Part shown: positions 2,549-15,940 of the stretch, piece after piece | Position numbering within the stretch: the first letter of the stretch is position 1 | Layout: each line of letters starts with the position of its first letter | The notes under the pieces: model-generated | What the model was told of the DNA's origin: nothing | Seen by the model: only the letters and a program-made list of their open reading frames with translations | Databases searched by the model: none | Program-made: the position numbers and the translations under genes | NCBI RefSeq assembly: GCF_008802355.1 | Contig: NZ_VZRA01000001.1 | Location: forward strand, 1,048,525 to 1,112,524 | Length of the DNA: 64,000 nucleotides | Direction: 5' to 3' | From: Oryzomonas sagensis | Lineage (GTDB): Bacteria > Desulfobacterota > Desulfuromonadia > Geobacterales > Pseudopelobacteraceae

Positions 2549-4459
2549 CTACCTCTTCCGCAGCACCCGTTTGTCCCCCACCCGGATGGTGAGCTTCTCG
2601 CTGTCGAAGTATTCCAGGAGCGGGATGAGGTACTTGCGCGACAGGCCGGTCTGTTCCCGGTATTCGGGCGGGGTGATCTCCCCCTTGGCCTGAAGGAGTG
2701 CCACCAGCTTCTCCCGCAGGCCGTCCAGGGCCGGGGCGGCGTAGAACAGATCGCTGGAGATGCGCACCGCCTCCCCCTTCCTGATTAGCAGGGCCAGGTT
2801 ATCGCGCACGCCCTTTTCGTCGCAGCGGAACCGTTCCATGATCTCCTTGATGGTCGGCGGCTCGCTCCCCTTCTCTCCCAGGAACGTTGCGATCTTCCCG
2901 GCCAGGCTGTCGCCGGCAGGTGAGCTCTGCACAACCCGTCCGACCGGTTTGACGATGTCCCGTTCCAAGAGGAGGGTGCCGTCCCGCTCCATGGCCGACA
3001 GCAGCGGGGTGAAGAAACGCTGGTCGCTCCTCTTGGGCAGGCGCGTTTTCAATTCCTCCTTGCCCATTCCCTCCCTGAGCGGATTGGCTGCCAGAAAGGC
3101 GGTGACCTCCCCCAGCAGGCCGCTTTTCAGGGCCGCAAACGCCTCCCGTGACAGGAAGGTGCGGGGTTCCCGGATCACCTGAAGGACCTCCCCGGAGGAG
3201 AGGAGCCCGGCCAGGGCTGTCTCGGCCGCTTTGCGCGGGATGCCGGAACGGAAGAGGATCTCCTCGAAGGCGATCCCCGAGAGCAGGCTTTGGTTGACGA
3301 GCAGGGCGCAGATGCGCTGGTGCTCCTCGCTGCCCAGCACCCCCAGCAACTGGAGCGCCTCGTCGCTGCGCCGGCGGCGGCGGGGAGGAAAGGGGTCCAG
3401 CACCACGCCGCCCCCCACCGTGGTGGCGGGAGAGGCGACCCGCAGGATGTAGCTGTCCCCCGGCAGCAGCAAGGCCGGTTCCTTGAGGCGCAACTGCACG
3501 AACGCGCTCTCCCCCGGCAGCAGCGTGTCCCGGTCCAGCAGGATCACCTGGGCCGGCACCTCGTAGGTGGCGGAATGGAGCCGCAGGGTGGCGCGATGTT
3601 TCAACTCCCGGGGCGCCGAGGCCAGGTGGTCCAGGCGCGCATCCACCGTCCGGGTCGCCCGGAAGATCCCCCGCGGTACGAGCACGTTGCCCCGGTGCAC
3701 CTGATCCAGGTCCACGCCCTGCACGTTCACCGCCAGGCGCTGTCCCGCCATCCCGGTATCGACCTTGCTGCCGTGGGCCTGGATGCCGCGCACCCGCCCC
3801 TCCCGGCCCGAGGGGAGCAGTTCCAGTTCGTCGCCCACCCTGATCTCGCCCGAGAGCAGGGTGCCGGTCACCACCGTGCCGAAGCCGGCCATGGTGAAGA
3901 CCCGGTCCACCGGCAGGCGGAAGTGCCCTTCACGCCGTTTTTCCGCGCTCAGTTCCGCCAGTCTGCCCAGTTCTGCCTTCAGCGCACCCAGCCCCTCGCC
4001 CGTGCGCGCCGAGACCGGTATGATCGGCGCGTCTTCCAGAAAACTGCCGGCCGTGAATTCCCGCACCTCCTCGGTGACCAGGGCCAGCCACTCCGGGTCC
4101 ACCATGTCCCGCTTGGTCAGGGCGATCAGTCCGCTCTTCACCCCCAGAAGCCGCAGGATGTCCAGGTGCTCCCGTGTCTGGGGCATGATCCCCTCGTCGG
4201 CGGCGATCACCAGCATGACCAGGTCCATCCCCCCCACGCCGGCCACCATGGTGCGCACGAATTTTTCGTGGCCCGGCACGTCCACGATGCCGAAGCGGAT
4301 GCCGCCCGCCAGTTCCAGGTGGGCGAATCCCAGCTCGATGGTGATGCCGCGGGCCTTCTCCTCCTTGAGACGGTCGGTGTCGATGCCGGTCAGGGCCTTG
4401 ACGAGCGAGGTCTTGCCGTGATCGATGTGCCCGGCGGTGCCGAGAATGAGATGTTTCAT
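2549..4459 (-). CDS. selB: Selenocysteine-specific elongation factor SelB
   Basis: SelB is the GTPase that delivers Sec-tRNA(Sec) to UGA codons followed by a SECIS hairpin. The 636-residue protein starts with the GTPase domain ([20 protein letters not shown]-loop at residues 8-17; DVPGHEKF switch II; TKRD in place of NKxD, as is normal in SelB), then EF-Tu-like beta-barrel domains and a C-terminal set of winged helices (about 380-636) that bind the mRNA hairpin. I chose the ATG at 4459 because it begins the conserved N-terminus and has AAGGA upstream; the frame stays open to 4654 but that part overlaps the response-regulator gene. No selA or tRNA-Sec gene is visible here. A likely client is the UGA-containing gene at 14843-15097. 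Confidence 0.95.
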
Positions 4460-4509
4460 AGGGGGTTCCTTCTTGCATTCATCCCTGGGAAGGGGTGATG
4501 AGGGGGAGA

Positions 4510-5214
4510 CTATGCCTGCCGGCTGAAGCGATACCCCACCCCGCGCACGGTCTGAAAATGGATCGGTTTGCCGGGGTCGGGCTCGAAGTACCTGCGCAGG
4601 CGGACGATGAAGTTGTCCAGGGTTCTGGTCTCGGTGTCGCTGGTGTAGCCCCATACCGACTGGAGCAACTCGCCCCGCGGGATGATCTCTCCCTCCTTCT
4701 GGAAGAAGAGCGCGAGGACGCGCACCTCCATCTCGGTCAGGTCGATCTCCCCCTGGGCGGTGCGGGCGCGGTAGGAAAGCGGGAACACCTCGTTGGCCCC
4801 GAAGCGGTACCCCTCCTCCACCGGGTCGGGGCGATACCAGGACGACCGGCGCAGCATTCCCTTCACCCGCAGCAAAAACTCCATCAGGTTGAACGGTTTG
4901 GTCAGGTAGTCGTCGGCCCCGTTCTCCAGTCCTTCCACCCGGTCGCTATCCTCGGAGCGGGCGGTCAGCATGAGAATCGGCACGCGCGGGTCCAGTTTGC
5001 GCACGGCGCGGCAGACCTGGAAGCCGTCCATGCCGGGCAGCATGACGTCCAGGATGATCAGATCGAAATGTTCCACCTCCAGGGTGACCAGCGCTTTTTC
5101 GCCCGAGTCGAAATGGCTGACGCGGCAACCCTCCTCCTCGAGGTTGAAACAGATGCCGCGGGCCAGGTGGATCTCGTCCTCGACAAGCATGATGTGGGGT
5201 TTATCGTTTGTCAT
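4510..5214 (-). CDS. OmpR/PhoB-type response regulator
   Basis: A two-domain DNA-binding response regulator. Residues 1-120 form a receiver domain with the acidic pocket (VEDE at 11-14) and the phospho-acceptor Asp near residue 56 in IILDVMLPGMDG; the C-terminal half is an OmpR-type winged helix (SVWGYTSDTETRTLDNFIVRLRR region, ending in VRGVGYRF). It follows the histidine kinase gene with almost no gap (kinase stop at 5228-5230), so the two are co-expressed and are a cognate pair. The start is uncertain: ATG at 5214 (GAGG 11 bases upstream) or ATG at 5223 (GAGG too close). Target genes are unknown; the linked ZnuA-like gene is the obvious first candidate. Confidence 0.92.
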   Translation of the reverse strand: MTNDKPHIMLVEDEIHLARGICFNLEEEGCRVSHFDSGEKALVTLEVEHFDLIILDVMLPGMDGFQVCRAVRKLDPRVPILMLTARSEDSDRVEGLENGADDYLTKPFNLMEFLLRVKGMLRRSSWYRPDPVEEGYRFGANEVFPLSYRARTAQGEIDLTEMEVRVLALFFQKEGEIIPRGELLQSVWGYTSDTETRTLDNFIVRLRRYFEPDPGKPIHFQTVRGVGYRFSRQA

Positions 5215-10610: not shown

Positions 10611-11651
10611 ATGTCCTTCCGCACCATTGAGTGGCGTGACAACGCCGTGATCATGATCGACCAGACCCGGCTGCCGGGGGAAGAGGTCTACACTACCTAT
10701 GAGGATTTTAAATCCGTGGCCGAGGCCATCAAGGGGATGATCATCCGGGGAGCCCCGGCCATCGGTGTTGCGGCGGCCATGGGGGTCGCCCTGGGGGCGC
10801 GGGAAATCATCGCCGATACCCATGAGTCCTTTTTCCGCCAGTTGGAGAACGTCTGCGAGATCATGGCCCGCACCCGTCCCACGGCGGTCAATCTGTTCTG
10901 GGGCATCGAGCGCATGAAGCGGGTGGCCGAGGCCCACCGCGGCAAGAGCCTCGATCAGATTCGGGAGGCGCTCAAAAAGGAGGCCATCCGTATCGAGGAG
11001 GAGGACCTGACCATCTGCCGCAATATCGGCAAATGGGGCGCCACCCTGATCCCCCAGGGGGCTACGATCTTGACCCACTGCAATGCCGGAGGCCTGGCGA
11101 CCGCCGGCTACGGCACCGCCCTGGGGGTGATCCGGGCCGCCCATGAGGCGGGCAAGGATATCAAGGTTTTTGCCGATGAAACCCGCCCCTGGCTGCAGGG
11201 GGCTCGGCTGACCGCCTGGGAGTTGGTGAAGGAGGGGATCCCCGCCACCCTGATCTCCGACAACATGGCCGGGTTTTTCATGAACCGGGGCGAGATTACC
11301 TGCTGTGTGGTGGGGGCCGACCGGATCGCCGCCAACGGTGACACGGCCAATAAGATCGGCACCTATTCGGTGGCCGTGCTGGCCAAGGAGAACAACATTC
11401 CGTTCTATGTCGCCGCGCCGCTCTCGACCCTGGATCTCTCCCTGAGCGACGGCAGCCGGATTCCCATCGAAGAACGCCCGAGGGACGAGGTAACCCACAT
11501 CAAGGGTATTGCCATCGCCCCGGCGGGGGTCAGTGTGCGCAACCCTGCCTTCGACGTTACCCCGGCCCGTTACATTACCGCCATCATCACCGAAAAAGGG
11601 ATCGTCAGCGGTGATTACCTCTTCGGGCTCAGAAAGGCCGCGGGTATCTGA
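10611..11651 (+). CDS. mtnA: S-methyl-5-thioribose-1-phosphate isomerase
   Basis: Methionine-salvage isomerase converting methylthioribose-1-phosphate to methylthioribulose-1-phosphate. The 346-residue protein has normal family length and motifs: [13 protein letters not shown] (about 48-60), [10 protein letters not shown] with the catalytic Cys (about 158-167) and [18 protein letters not shown] with the catalytic Asp (about 238-255). AAGGAG lies seven bases upstream of the ATG, directly after the repeat at 10460-10597. glnE starts three bases after the stop, so the two are co-transcribed; a link between methionine salvage and nitrogen control is not obvious. Confidence 0.96.
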
Positions 11652-11654
11652 CCT

Positions 11655-14600
11655 ATGCACGTGGAACGTTTTTCCCATGAGTTCAGCCGCATCATGGGCC
11701 TTGCCGACCAGGGGGACCGGGCACGGGCGCTGGCCTCCTTTCTGGAGTTCCACGGCTATCTCCACGGTGAGCGTTCGGCAGAAAATACCATCCTGTCCGG
11801 GGCGCACCTTTCCGTCGATGCATTGCACCGCATTATTGTCGGCTCGCTTTTGACCCCCGTGCCCGACATGGCGCTCAACGCCTTTGAACGCCTGACCGCC
11901 GTCATCCCCACCCAAGACCTGGCCGAAGTAGCCCAGCGCCGAAAGCGTCTGGGACAATTTATCCAGGTGTGCGGTTCCTCCCCGTTCCTGGTCAACCTGA
12001 TGTATAAGACCCCCGCCACATTCCGCTGGCTGTTTCTGGAGAACGCCGTCGATCTTGCCCGCAAGGATGGGGAGATGCTGGCCACCCTCCGCTCCCGGGT
12101 GGATGAGGGAACCGATTTCACGGAACTGCTCAGGGTGCTGCGCTGTTTCAAACGGGCCGAGATCCTGCGGATCGCCGCGCGCGATCTGAACGGCCTGGCC
12201 TCCCTGGAGGAGGTGACCGGCGAACTTTCCTGCTTGGCGGCCGCGTCGCTGCAGGTGGCCTACGAGGTCTGCCGCCGTTGCCTGATCCGGGAGTACGGCG
12301 TCCCTCTGGTTGAGGGCGAAGACGGCCTCCGGGAAGCGGAGATGACCGTGATCGGCATGGGCAAGCTGGGGGGGAATGAACTGAACTTCTCCTCGGACAT
12401 CGATATCATCTATTTTTATGAGTCGGACCGTGGAGAGACCAGTGGCATAGAGAATGGCCCCGGTGTGAGGAAGGGGGTGGTCTCCCTGCACACCTTTTTC
12501 AACAAGCTGGGGGAGATGATCAGCAAGGCGCTCTCCCTGGTTACCGAGGACGGCTTCGTCTTTCGGGTGGACGTGGGGCTGCGACCGGAGGGCAAATCCG
12601 GCGATATGGCGATTTCCCTGCGTTCTGCGGAGATCTACTACGAATCCTGGGGCCAGTCCTGGGAGCGTACGGCCATGCTCAAGGCGAGGCCGGTGGCCGG
12701 TTCCCTGGAACTGGGCAATCAGTTGCTGAAGCTGCTCCAGCCGTTCGTCTACCGCAAATACCTCGATTACAACCTGATCGAGGATATGAAGAACATGAAG
12801 CAGAAGATCGATGCCTCCCTGGCCCGCTCCATGGAGGGGGAGGCCAACCTCAAGCTGGGGCGTGGGGGGATACGGGAGATCGAGTTTTTCATCCAGGCTC
12901 TGCAACTGGTCTATGCCGGCAAGAATCCCCATCTGCGGGAGCGTAATTCGCTCAAGGCGTTGGACACCCTGCTGGCGGCGCACCTGATCACGGACGACGA
13001 CCATCGCAGACTTTCCGAGGCCTACCGTTTTCTCCGCACGGCCGAGCACCGTATCCAGGTGGTTCAGGAGCGTCAGACCCATAATCTCCCCGCCAAAGAG
13101 GAGGAGTTGGAGGCCCTGGCCCGCCGCTGCGGTTTCCTGCGCCCCAACGGCCCGGAACGATTTATGGAAACCCTGGAGGAACATCGCAGTAACGTCTCCT
13201 CCATCTACGGCAACCTGTTCCTTTCCCGCGACGAGAAGCTCAAACAGGATGTGGACCCCAAGGTGCTCCTTTTCCTCGATGCCAAGGCCGATCCCGACCT
13301 GGTCAAGGATATGCTGGCCGAGCGCCGTTTCGAGGACGTGGAGCGTGCCTACGAGAACCTCCAGGCGCTGCGGCGCGGCCCTGAGAGCGGCAACCTCACC
13401 GAGCGCGGCCGCCGCACCCTGGAAAAGATCGCTCCCCTGCTGTTACAGGAGATCTTCCTGTCGCCCGACCCCGATATGGCCCTTGCCAACCTGGAACGTT
13501 TTCTGGCCATCATCGGCACCCGCTCCTCCTACTATGCCCTGCTGGCCGAAAATCGTGAGACGCTCAAGCTGCTGGTCTCACTGTTCGGCATGTCCGAATT
13601 CCTCTCCAAGATCCTGATCAGCCACCCGGAGCTGCTGGACAGCATGGTGGCCCGCAGTTATGCCTCCACGCTCAAACCGAGGGAGATGATGGACCGGGAA
13701 CTGGTGGGCCTGCTGGAGCGATCCGACTATTTCGAAGAACAGTTGGACGTGCTGCGGCGATACCGCAACGAGGAGTTCCTGCGCATCGGCTTGAACGATA
13801 TCCACGGCAAACTGGGCCAGGGGGAGGCCACCGCCCAGTTGACCGTGCTGGGCGAGGCCTGCCTGGGGGCGGCCTACCGCTTGGCGGTGCAGGACCTGAA
13901 GCGTTTCGGCCGCCCGATGTTCCGCTTCGAGGGGAACGATGCCGAGGCGTCCCTGGCGGTGATCGCCATGGGCAAACTGGGGGGGGGCGACCTCAACTAT
14001 CATTCCGACCTGGACATCATCTTCGTCTATGATCGCCAGGGTACGACGAACGGCGAGAAACGGATCTCCAACCACGAATACTTTGCCAAACTGGCCCAAA
14101 AGATCATCTCGATCCTGAGCATGCAGACCCGCGAGGGATATGTGTACAAGATCGACACCCGCCTGCGACCGTCGGGCAACGCCGGTCCACTGGTCACCTC
14201 CCTGGATTCGTTCCTGGAATATCACCGCAAGGAGGCGCAGATATGGGAACGCCAGGCGCTTACCAAGGCACGGGTGGTGCTGGGAAACGATAGCCTGGGG
14301 GTCCAGTTGCACGACGTGATCCGCCATACGGTCTACGGGACCTCGATCGATGACGAGGGACGCCGCGAGATCCATCGGCTGCGGATGCGCATGGAGAACG
14401 AACTGGCGCGGGAAAAGGACGGCAGCTACAATATCAAGACCGGCCGGGGCGGCATCGTCGACGTGGAGTTCGTCACCCAGTATCTGCAACTCAAGTACGG
14501 GTGCCGGTATCCTGAACTGCGCACCACCAGTACCTTGGTGGCCCTCAGGGAGATCGGGGGGCTGGGCCTTGTGCCGGAAAACGGCGCCGAGGTGCTGCTC

Positions 14601-14825
14601 TCCGGTTTCACCTTCCTGCGCAAGCTGGAAAATCGCCTGCGCATCATCCACGACTACTCGGTGAACGATCTGGCCGGGTCGAAAAACTACCTGAACAAGC
14701 TGGCCCGGCGCTTGGGCTATGATCCTGCCCTGAAAAACCCGGGCGCGGCGCTGATCAGCGATTACGAGGAGACCACCGGGAAAATCCGGGACTGCTATGC
14801 CCGGATTCTGGGCGAATTGGCGTAA
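11655..14825 (+). CDS. glnE: Glutamine synthetase adenylyl-/deadenylyltransferase
   Basis: Bifunctional enzyme that adds and removes AMP on glutamine synthetase in response to PII and glutamine. The 1,056-residue protein has the two expected nucleotidyltransferase halves, each followed by a helical domain: N-terminal deadenylylase with GMGKLGGNELNFSSDIDI (about residue 234) and C-terminal adenylylase with AMGKLGGGDLNYHSDLDI (about 771). It is somewhat longer than the enterobacterial protein (about 946). The ATG at 11655 follows the mtnA stop after three bases with no strong ribosome site of its own, suggesting translational coupling. The next gene, the UGA-containing AhpD-like one, begins 17 bases after the stop. 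Confidence 0.96.
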   Translation: MHVERFSHEFSRIMGLADQGDRARALASFLEFHGYLHGERSAENTILSGAHLSVDALHRIIVGSLLTPVPDMALNAFERLTAVIPTQDLAEVAQRRKRLGQFIQVCGSSPFLVNLMYKTPATFRWLFLENAVDLARKDGEMLATLRSRVDEGTDFTELLRVLRCFKRAEILRIAARDLNGLASLEEVTGELSCLAAASLQVAYEVCRRCLIREYGVPLVEGEDGLREAEMTVIGMGKLGGNELNFSSDIDIIYFYESDRGETSGIENGPGVRKGVVSLHTFFNKLGEMISKALSLVTEDGFVFRVDVGLRPEGKSGDMAISLRSAEIYYESWGQSWERTAMLKARPVAGSLELGNQLLKLLQPFVYRKYLDYNLIEDMKNMKQKIDASLARSMEGEANLKLGRGGIREIEFFIQALQLVYAGKNPHLRERNSLKALDTLLAAHLITDDDHRRLSEAYRFLRTAEHRIQVVQERQTHNLPAKEEELEALARRCGFLRPNGPERFMETLEEHRSNVSSIYGNLFLSRDEKLKQDVDPKVLLFLDAKADPDLVKDMLAERRFEDVERAYENLQALRRGPESGNLTERGRRTLEKIAPLLLQEIFLSPDPDMALANLERFLAIIGTRSSYYALLAENRETLKLLVSLFGMSEFLSKILISHPELLDSMVARSYASTLKPREMMDRELVGLLERSDYFEEQLDVLRRYRNEEFLRIGLNDIHGKLGQGEATAQLTVLGEACLGAAYRLAVQDLKRFGRPMFRFEGNDAEASLAVIAMGKLGGGDLNYHSDLDIIFVYDRQGTTNGEKRISNHEYFAKLAQKIISILSMQTREGYVYKIDTRLRPSGNAGPLVTSLDSFLEYHRKEAQIWERQALTKARVVLGNDSLGVQLHDVIRHTVYGTSIDDEGRREIHRLRMRMENELAREKDGSYNIKTGRGGIVDVEFVTQYLQLKYGCRYPELRTTSTLVALREIGGLGLVPENGAEVLLSGFTFLRKLENRLRIIHDYSVNDLAGSKNYLNKLARRLGYDPALKNPGAALISDYEETTGKIRDCYARILGELA

Positions 14826-14842
14826 CAAGGAGAGGGGGAGCC

Positions 14843-15097
14843 ATGAACATCCGCAAGAAGTTCCTTGACTATGAGTACGAAGAGGTGCTGGACGGCCGCA
14901 CGCGCGAGCTGATCCGCGTGGGCTGCGCCATCGCCGTGGGGTGCCCCACCTGACTGAAGAAGCACTTCGCGGCCGCGAAGTCCCATGGCGCTACGGATGC
15001 GGAACTCCGTGAGGCGATCGCCTACGGCGCGATAGCCCCCGGCGGCAGGGCCAAGAATTTTGCCCTGGATATGCTGGCGGAGATGGAACAGGAATAG
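14843..15097 (+). CDS. AhpD-like selenoprotein (in-frame UGA, Sec37)
   Basis: Small alkylhydroperoxidase-like protein of the carboxymuconolactone decarboxylase/AhpD family, read through a UGA at 14951-14953 as selenocysteine. Product: 84 residues, Sec37. The frame starts at ATG 14843 behind AGGAGAGGGGGAG and ends at TAG 15095. Around the UGA it reads AIAVGCPT-U-LKKHFAAAK, that is CxxU followed by xxxH, matching the AhpD CxxCxxxH redox motif with U for the second Cys; after the UGA the family pattern continues (GATDAELREAIAYGAIAPGG). A perfect 18-base palindrome 10 bases after the UGA can form a SECIS hairpin, and selB is encoded 10 kb away. It follows glnE by 17 bases. A termination or pseudogene reading would give a 36-residue stub ending just before the active-site position, which I consider much less likely. 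Confidence 0.88.
14951..14985 (+). promoter_or_regulatory. Candidate SECIS hairpin after the Sec UGA
   Basis: UGA at 14951-14953, then a perfect palindrome ACTTCGCGGCCGCGAAGT at 14964-14981. As RNA it folds to a 7-bp stem with a GGCC loop; the loop starts 18 bases after the UGA. Bacterial SECIS elements lie within the coding region shortly after the UGA and carry a G at the start of the apical loop, which this does. The element is inside the AhpD-like coding sequence. Confidence 0.72.
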
Positions 15098-15138
15098 CAA
15101 AAGATACGGGTGGGGGAGGTCTCCGCCCGTATCTTTTG
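15098..15138. terminator. Bidirectional terminator, selenoprotein / DUF116
   Basis: A 13-bp stem CAAAAGATACGGG (15098-15110) and CCCGTATCTTTTG (15126-15138) with a 15-base loop, placed immediately after the selenoprotein stop and just before the stop of the convergent DUF116 gene. The A/T runs at the base of the stem suit termination on both strands. Confidence 0.85.
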
Positions 15139-15142
15139 CGTA

Positions 15143-15940
15143 TCAGGCGGTTTCTGAAGCCGGCTCTTCCTGGAGGATCACCTGGCTCAACGCCTCGTCG
15201 ATTTTGTTGATATCGACGGTGGTATTGAAACAGGGGCCGAAAGGACGGTCGTTGAGGATGCCGATTACCGGCAAGGGATAACAATCCTTGATGCCGGAGG
15301 TGAGGTCACGTTCGCAGGCCACGGCCAACACCAGTTTCGGGCGCTTCTCCACGATCACCTTGCGGGCCAGTGTGCCCCCGGTGGCCACGGAGATGTCCAC
15401 ATGGTACTTTTTGCCGATGCCCACCAAGCCTTTGATGTCGCAACGGCCGCACTGCACGCATTTCTTGATGTCGCCCGTGACCTTGATCTCGCAGTCGAAC
15501 AACTGGATGCAGTGGGGGAGCAGCACCAGGATACGGTCGGGCTTGACTTTCTGGCGCTGGGAGATGACCAGGCTGTTGTTCATGGCGATGAAGGATTGGC
15601 GGATGCTGTCCTTGTCGAGCCCCAGCCCCCGGCCGACCAGTTCGATCATCGGCAGGAGAAACTTGATGACCACCAGGCGCATGAAACGGGTGAAAAAGAT
15701 GTCCTTGCCCAGGGCGGTGGTCAGCACCAGCAGGCCGGTCCCCAGGATGGCCACCCCCGAGAGCACCGCCACGACGATGCCGACGATGTGGGGCAGTTGG
15801 GGGTGGATGTTGGCAAGGCCGCGATTGGGGACCCACCAGGCAAGAAAGGTCAGGCCGACCACGAGCAGGCAGGTGAAGCCCATCAGGGAGATGAACAGGC
15901 GTTTGCGGGGTGGGGTGGTGGTCCCTTGCGTGTCGGTCAT
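15143..15940 (-). CDS. DUF116 membrane protein
   Basis: A 265-residue protein of the DUF116 family. Two hydrophobic helices lie at about residues 14-37 and 48-75; the remainder is soluble and cysteine-containing, with CVQCGRCDIKGL (about 161-172) and other single cysteines (LPHCIQLFDC, VACERD, DCYPLP) that could hold a metal or Fe-S site. Family function is not established. Its ATG overlaps the fmt stop (TAATG), so it is the last gene of a def-fmt-DUF116 unit. That fixed linkage to N-formylmethionine handling is common in related bacteria as far as I know, but no mechanism follows from it. Confidence 0.88.
   Translation of the reverse strand: MTDTQGTTTPPRKRLFISLMGFTCLLVVGLTFLAWWVPNRGLANIHPQLPHIVGIVVAVLSGVAILGTGLLVLTTALGKDIFFTRFMRLVVIKFLLPMIELVGRGLGLDKDSIRQSFIAMNNSLVISQRQKVKPDRILVLLPHCIQLFDCEIKVTGDIKKCVQCGRCDIKGLVGIGKKYHVDISVATGGTLARKVIVEKRPKLVLAVACERDLTSGIKDCYPLPVIGILNDRPFGPCFNTTVDINKIDEALSQVILQEEPASETA

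Follow-up and report, generated by a model that had tools for sequence, protein, structure and literature searches.

The DNA analyzed here (the window) is a 64,000-nucleotide stretch of the Oryzomonas sagensis genome, and it contains, just downstream of glnE, a short reading frame with a UGA codon that falls between Cys-Pro-Thr and Leu-Lys-Lys-His. The question that this locus raises is whether the UGA interrupts a broken gene or is decoded as selenocysteine (Sec). A preliminary description, made from the letters of the window, had proposed that this is a cryptic gene for an AhpD-like selenoprotein. At a probability of roughly 95%, we favor the reading that the product is a Sec37-containing redox protein of the AhpD/CMD fold, that UGA37 would be decoded by means of SelB and an RNA hairpin, and that the protein is most likely a peroxidase or a thiol-selenol redox protein. 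The features on which the analysis is based are as follows.

10611..11651, plus strand: mtnA, 5' of glnE
11655..14825, plus strand: glnE, the end of which is 17 nt 5' of the selenoprotein gene
14827..14842, plus strand: likely ribosome binding site region AAGGAGAGGGGGAGCC, before the ATG, found by eye
14843..15097, plus strand: selenoprotein gene of the GSU3128 family (NF041047) with a CMD/AhpD domain, 84 residues, stop codon TAG
14951..14953, plus strand: UGA codon 37, predicted Sec in C34-P-T-U37-L-K-K-H41
14964..14981, plus strand: SECIS-like hairpin with a 7-bp stem, ACUUCGC/GCGAAGU, and the apical loop GGCC at 14971-14974
15097..15139, no strand assigned: 19-bp hairpin found by folding, likely a two-way transcription terminator
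15143..15940, minus strand: DUF116 protein gene, convergent with the selenoprotein gene
2549..4459, minus strand: selB, one of two genomic copies, with its probable start inside the longer ORF 2549-4654

Family identity and gene neighborhood

The coordinates, the ATG start, the UGA at 14951, and the TAG stop are all as the preliminary description gave them, and the ribosome site that it claimed corresponds to a site-like stretch visible directly before the ATG. When UGA is translated as U, the 84-residue product has a single U, at codon 37. With Cys substituted for Sec, this product matches the NCBIfam model NF041047, "GSU3128 family (seleno)protein," over its full length with 143.7 bits (NF041047 is an equivalog model with a curated cutoff of 110 bits), and it matches Pfam CMD at 5e-15, which bears out the proposal of an AhpD-like selenoprotein gene. 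C34-P-T-U37 has the CxxU form of the family motif, and the closest named relative is that of Oryzomonas japonica, at 96% identity. The family is listed as "distant alkylhydroperoxidase (AhpD) homolog," motif CxxU, in passages of a 2026 review (PMC13188914), which credit the distant AhpD homolog to Kryukov and Gladyshev (2004). The relevant part of a 2006 paper (PMC1794560) also assigns a "distant AhpD homolog" selenoprotein to Geobacter sulfurreducens and G. uraniireducens (spelled uraniumreducens there); the shared name and organism group suggest that this entry is the NF041047 family. The word AhpD does not occur in the available main text of PMC12013277, and a literature search for GSU3128 found no paper. 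Based on the NCBIfam equivalog model and the listings in the literature, we conclude that the gene is a genuine member of a catalogued selenoprotein family that has been known for about two decades. It is not new, and the word "cryptic" does not fit it. The finding opens no new kind of system, but a reading of the raw sequence was able to recover a genuine selenoprotein, and what the present analysis adds is family-level SECIS evidence (six codons with hardly any synonymous variation) and the absence of a Cys form above the family cutoff among the genomes searched.

The arrangement of mtnA, glnE, and the selenoprotein gene suggests that glnE and the selenoprotein gene are likely to be cotranscribed in the window. 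The preliminary description had read this arrangement as an operon tied to nitrogen control. The gene order is correct, but glnE adjacency is patchy among relatives, which makes it weak evidence for a nitrogen role: of the 24 close loci, 13 have glnE directly upstream, as do 17 of 29 family-genome loci (a set that overlaps the 24). Among 36 wider loci, for which the upstream stretches are only a few hundred bases long, glnE was found in three, all from the same family. We judge the proposed nitrogen-control operon to be a weak candidate. The terminator proposed at the end of the gene has a counterpart in the 19-bp hairpin at 15097-15139, which has a folding energy of -34.3 kcal/mol (z of -8.6) and is situated between the convergent genes, whereas a terminator pattern scan of 14700-15200 gave no match. 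A search of the whole window with Rfam at gathering thresholds detected three tRNAs and nothing else.

Conservation of the UGA codon among relatives

A scan of genome contigs detected 26 loci. Codon 37 is TGA in all 24 of the close relatives among them (79 to 96% identity), and the remaining two are distant CxxC proteins with 37% and 42% identity. Among the 76 genomes of the taxonomic family, 57 have a match. There are 48 strong matches, every one with an in-frame TGA. The 12 further matches are weak (29 to 38 bits) and stop-free; they come from 12 genomes, and a strong match is also present in 3 of these. A gene masked in part, in G068, is one of the 12 weak matches. In the class, 137 places above the family cutoff were found in 136 of 277 genomes, and all 137 have the in-frame TGA. 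(One of these places, G496:C112:13813-14040, is close to the end of a contig; it is a second gene copy in its genome and contains a TAG as well.) In a sample of 297 genomes from the phylum, matches at 1e-8 were found in 37. Eleven are above the cutoff, all with TGA; below it, four more have TGA and the remaining matches have none. Altogether, 92 loci were examined. One of them (L114, from G068) has no codon 37, the gene being N-masked from that point, and 22 of the other 91 were dropped since their 105-nt stretch is the same as an earlier one, which leaves 69 nonredundant sequences. TGA is present at codon 37 in all 69, and E22, C34, U37, and H41 are invariant in all 69. The proposal that Sec occupies a CPTU...H motif is thus upheld by C34-P-T-U37-L-K-K-H41 and by the conserved TGA of the relatives.

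An in-frame stop would be expected of a broken gene, and a competing reading is therefore a pseudogene or a sequencing error, with the UGA as a simple nonsense mutation. This reading does not account for a UGA that is common to the whole family, at every class place above the cutoff and in every nonredundant sequence checked, nor for the selection pressure on the codons that follow. Uncorrected pN/pS is 0.204 before the UGA and 0.263 after it (64 sequences; L097-L100 and the truncated L113 were left out), so that coding is conserved on either side of the codon and purifying selection at the protein level persists past it. The pattern of a conserved in-frame UGA exceeds chance. We therefore reject the pseudogene reading, to which we assign next to no probability.

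A different possibility is that the UGA acts as a selenium switch, with a functional 36-residue stub made at low selenium and the full protein made only when selenium is plentiful. UGA decoding requires SelB and Sec-tRNA, and termination at Sec-UGA codons is common, and both points speak for such a switch. Nothing in this analysis supports a function for the stub, however, and residues are conserved throughout the part after the UGA, so we consider the switch highly improbable.

The preliminary description had suggested a search for orthologues with Cys in place of Sec. Such Cys forms are absent above the family cutoff (none of the 137 class places and none in the 297-genome phylum sample), and Cys counterparts are confined to distant CMD/AhpD proteins with CxxC. 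Decoding of UGA37 as selenocysteine is strongly supported by these comparisons of sequence.

Four loci (L097-L100) from other classes of the phylum are small, stand-alone AhpD-domain genes with TGA in C-x-x-U and a similar hairpin. They score 72 to 78 bits, under the NF041047 cutoff, and are perhaps a sister family.

The SECIS-like hairpin and the Sec decoding genes

Codons 41 to 46 (CAC TTC GCG GTC GCG AAG, beginning at H41) are nearly frozen at synonymous sites. The chance of a shared codon for the commonest residue is 0.91 to 1.0 at these codons versus 0.26 to 0.81 elsewhere, Met codons and the UGA being left aside (65 sequences; L097-L100 were omitted as below the family cutoff). Mean pS is 0.062 for codons 41 to 46 versus 0.672 for the other codons after the UGA (64 sequences). 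The RNA of this stretch forms the family hairpin CUUCGC-GGUC-GCGAAG, with a loop that begins 17 nt after the UGA. The limits for bacterial SECIS elements given in the pertinent passages of PMC13188914 are a loop of 3 to 9 nt, a stem of 4 to 16 bp, a spacing of 16 to 37 nt, a G in the first two loop positions, and a minimum free energy of at most -7.5; the window hairpin, with a loop of 4 nt that begins with GG, a 7-bp stem, a spacing of 17 nt, and -9.4 kcal/mol, is within all of them. Compared with the fdhF SECIS of Escherichia coli K-12, which we used as a yardstick and in which a GGUC loop follows the UGA at 18 nt, the window hairpin has GGCC at 17 nt and an unlike stem sequence. Nothing of substance sets the gene apart from the rest of the GSU3128 family; the difference is in the loop, which is GGCC here, as it is throughout the genus (six genomes), versus GGUC in 53 of the 69 sequences.

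Each of the 69 sequences has a stem with 6 to 8 pairs, whereas at least 6 pairs are found at 39.5% of 3890 other codon positions, in a scan that allowed loops of 3 to 14 nt starting 14 to 37 nt after the UGA, which is wider than the published SECIS model. L097-L100 retain the usual stem with the loop GGGC, GGCC, or GGCG. The family member at L103:210-458 (minus strand) has a different SECIS stem, of 8 bp with loop GGCA, and Ala replaces Phe42 there. In L104, the loop at the usual place is CCUG, which breaks the loop rule, and the stem scan detected no alternative hairpin of the model type.

Tests of single-sequence stability do not support the hairpin. Synonymous shuffles of single sequences gave no significant result (mean z of -0.28, negative in 42 of 69, within the lowest 5% in 3 of 69), stem length reached P ≤ 0.05 against a sequence's own shuffles in 0 of 69, and the window hairpin is no better than its dinucleotide shuffles (z of -0.02). 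The best stems after 28 terminal TGA stops range from 2 to 16, which indicates that stem length alone is not discriminating. In a structure alignment of 29 sequences, the stem is almost invariant, and a compensatory double change is seen in none of six pairs. The hairpin of codons 41 to 46 fits the model of a bacterial SECIS, and it is family-level conservation and geometry, not the stability of any one sequence, that suggest this assignment.

The element is also a near-perfect inverted repeat, as would be expected if the codons were frozen by a DNA site such as a protein-binding palindrome instead of a SECIS. In the own genome (3.6 Mb, 18 contigs), however, CTTCGCGGNCGCGAAG occurs at one place only, which is this one, and this disfavors a DNA site. 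Loop and spacing agree with the SECIS model and with E. coli fdhF, and the stem is kept in the four distant UGA relatives of other classes. We regard the DNA-site explanation as very unlikely and retain the SECIS reading.

The genome that carries the gene has genes for Sec decoding, namely, two selB genes and three tRNA-Sec genes, the latter above the Rfam cutoff and with ARAGORN in agreement. As had been claimed from the raw sequence, the window contains one selB (minus strand, about 2549-4459). The second, at L115:1023-2966 (minus strand), is 75% identical to it over 636 residues. The tRNA-Sec genes are at L115:4070-4167 (minus strand), L116:1699-1796 (plus strand), and L117:2500-2597 (minus strand). 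The six genomes of the genus have one to three tRNA-Sec genes each; genomes with more than one have been reported, according to the relevant part of PMC5330540. selB is present in 63 of the 76 family genomes, as one copy in 59 and as two copies in four, namely, G000, G051, and G052 of the own genus, in which it is thus duplicated in three of six genomes, and G043. A literature search on selB, tRNA-Sec, and Oryzomonas found nothing that names Oryzomonas. It is conceivable that the two SelB paralogues divide the selenoprotein mRNAs by SECIS type, with the GGCC-loop gene as a client of one of them, but the GGCC loop also occurs in the three members of the genus for which a single selB was found, which counts against such a division, and we think it quite unlikely.

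Across the 76 family genomes, 45 of the 64 with selB or tRNA-Sec carry the gene, versus 3 of the 12 with neither (Fisher P = 0.0066, relatedness ignored). At a completeness of ≥90%, the numbers are 35 of 49 versus 2 of 10 (P = 0.0037, relatedness again ignored). G068 was counted as being without the gene, and the search for tRNA-Sec covered the 13 genomes that lacked a selB match and the six of the genus. The TGA gene is present and selB and tRNA-Sec were undetected in G017, G027, and G061 (completeness of 96, 99, and 85%). L012 and L023, two metagenome-assembled genome records, have genes identical to those of G017 and G027, so contigs may be missing; these three genomes perhaps lack contigs or have recently lost Sec decoding.

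Predicted fold and possible redox chemistry

The AlphaFold model of the product has a mean pLDDT of 94.2, and CMD/AhpD-like proteins lead its PDB matches, although the E value is below 0.001 for only 1 of 96 matches. The Pfam CMD match, the model, and the PDB matches agree on a CMD/AhpD fold. The best structural matches are RclX (7y4r; E value of 7e-4) and O27018 (3bey), with a root mean square deviation of 1.2 to 1.4 Å over 62 to 71 columns; both are CxxC...H proteins by sequence and are also the top two in a sequence search, but they have Cys where Sec stands here and their chains are longer. Mycobacterium tuberculosis AhpD (1gu9; E value of about 1) and Pseudomonas aeruginosa PA0269 (2ijc; E value of 0.6) are weak matches that have the CMD fold and, at corresponding spacing, the Glu, Cys, Cys, and His positions of the relay in common with the product, which differs from both in having Sec for the second Cys and only 84 residues.

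In M. tuberculosis AhpD, protons are relayed by Glu118, Cys130, His132, Cys133, and His137, according to the pertinent passages of PMC3141380. E22, C34, U37, and H41 match four of these five residues by spacing. The position of His132 is Thr36 here and Tyr in PA0269. By the same spacing, U37 is in the position of Cys133, which we take to be the peroxide-attacking residue. On this assumption, U37 would be the attacking residue and C34 the resolving one, which is the opposite of the label in the preliminary description.

The features described above are consistent with the following sequence of steps. SelB would bind the hairpin 17 nt downstream of UGA37 and, while bound, would bring Sec-tRNA-Sec to the codon in place of release. 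The product would be a small, single-domain protein, most likely a peroxidase or a thiol-selenol redox protein, in which the U37 selenolate, aided by E22 and H41, may attack peroxide or an oxidized substrate. C34 would then resolve U37 to a selenenylsulfide, and a cellular thiol system would reduce the C34-U37 selenenylsulfide. The sequence itself shows the gene, the UGA and its conservation, the hairpin, the decoding genes, and the predicted fold, from which we infer both Sec insertion and this redox chemistry.

The AhpD domain is also weakly alike in two other kinds of selenoproteins: ArsM_AhpD_UU (NF041537), with 35.5 bits against a cutoff of 510 and a model of 345 positions, and MduS (NF045649), with 31.8 bits against a cutoff of 380 and a model of 338 positions.
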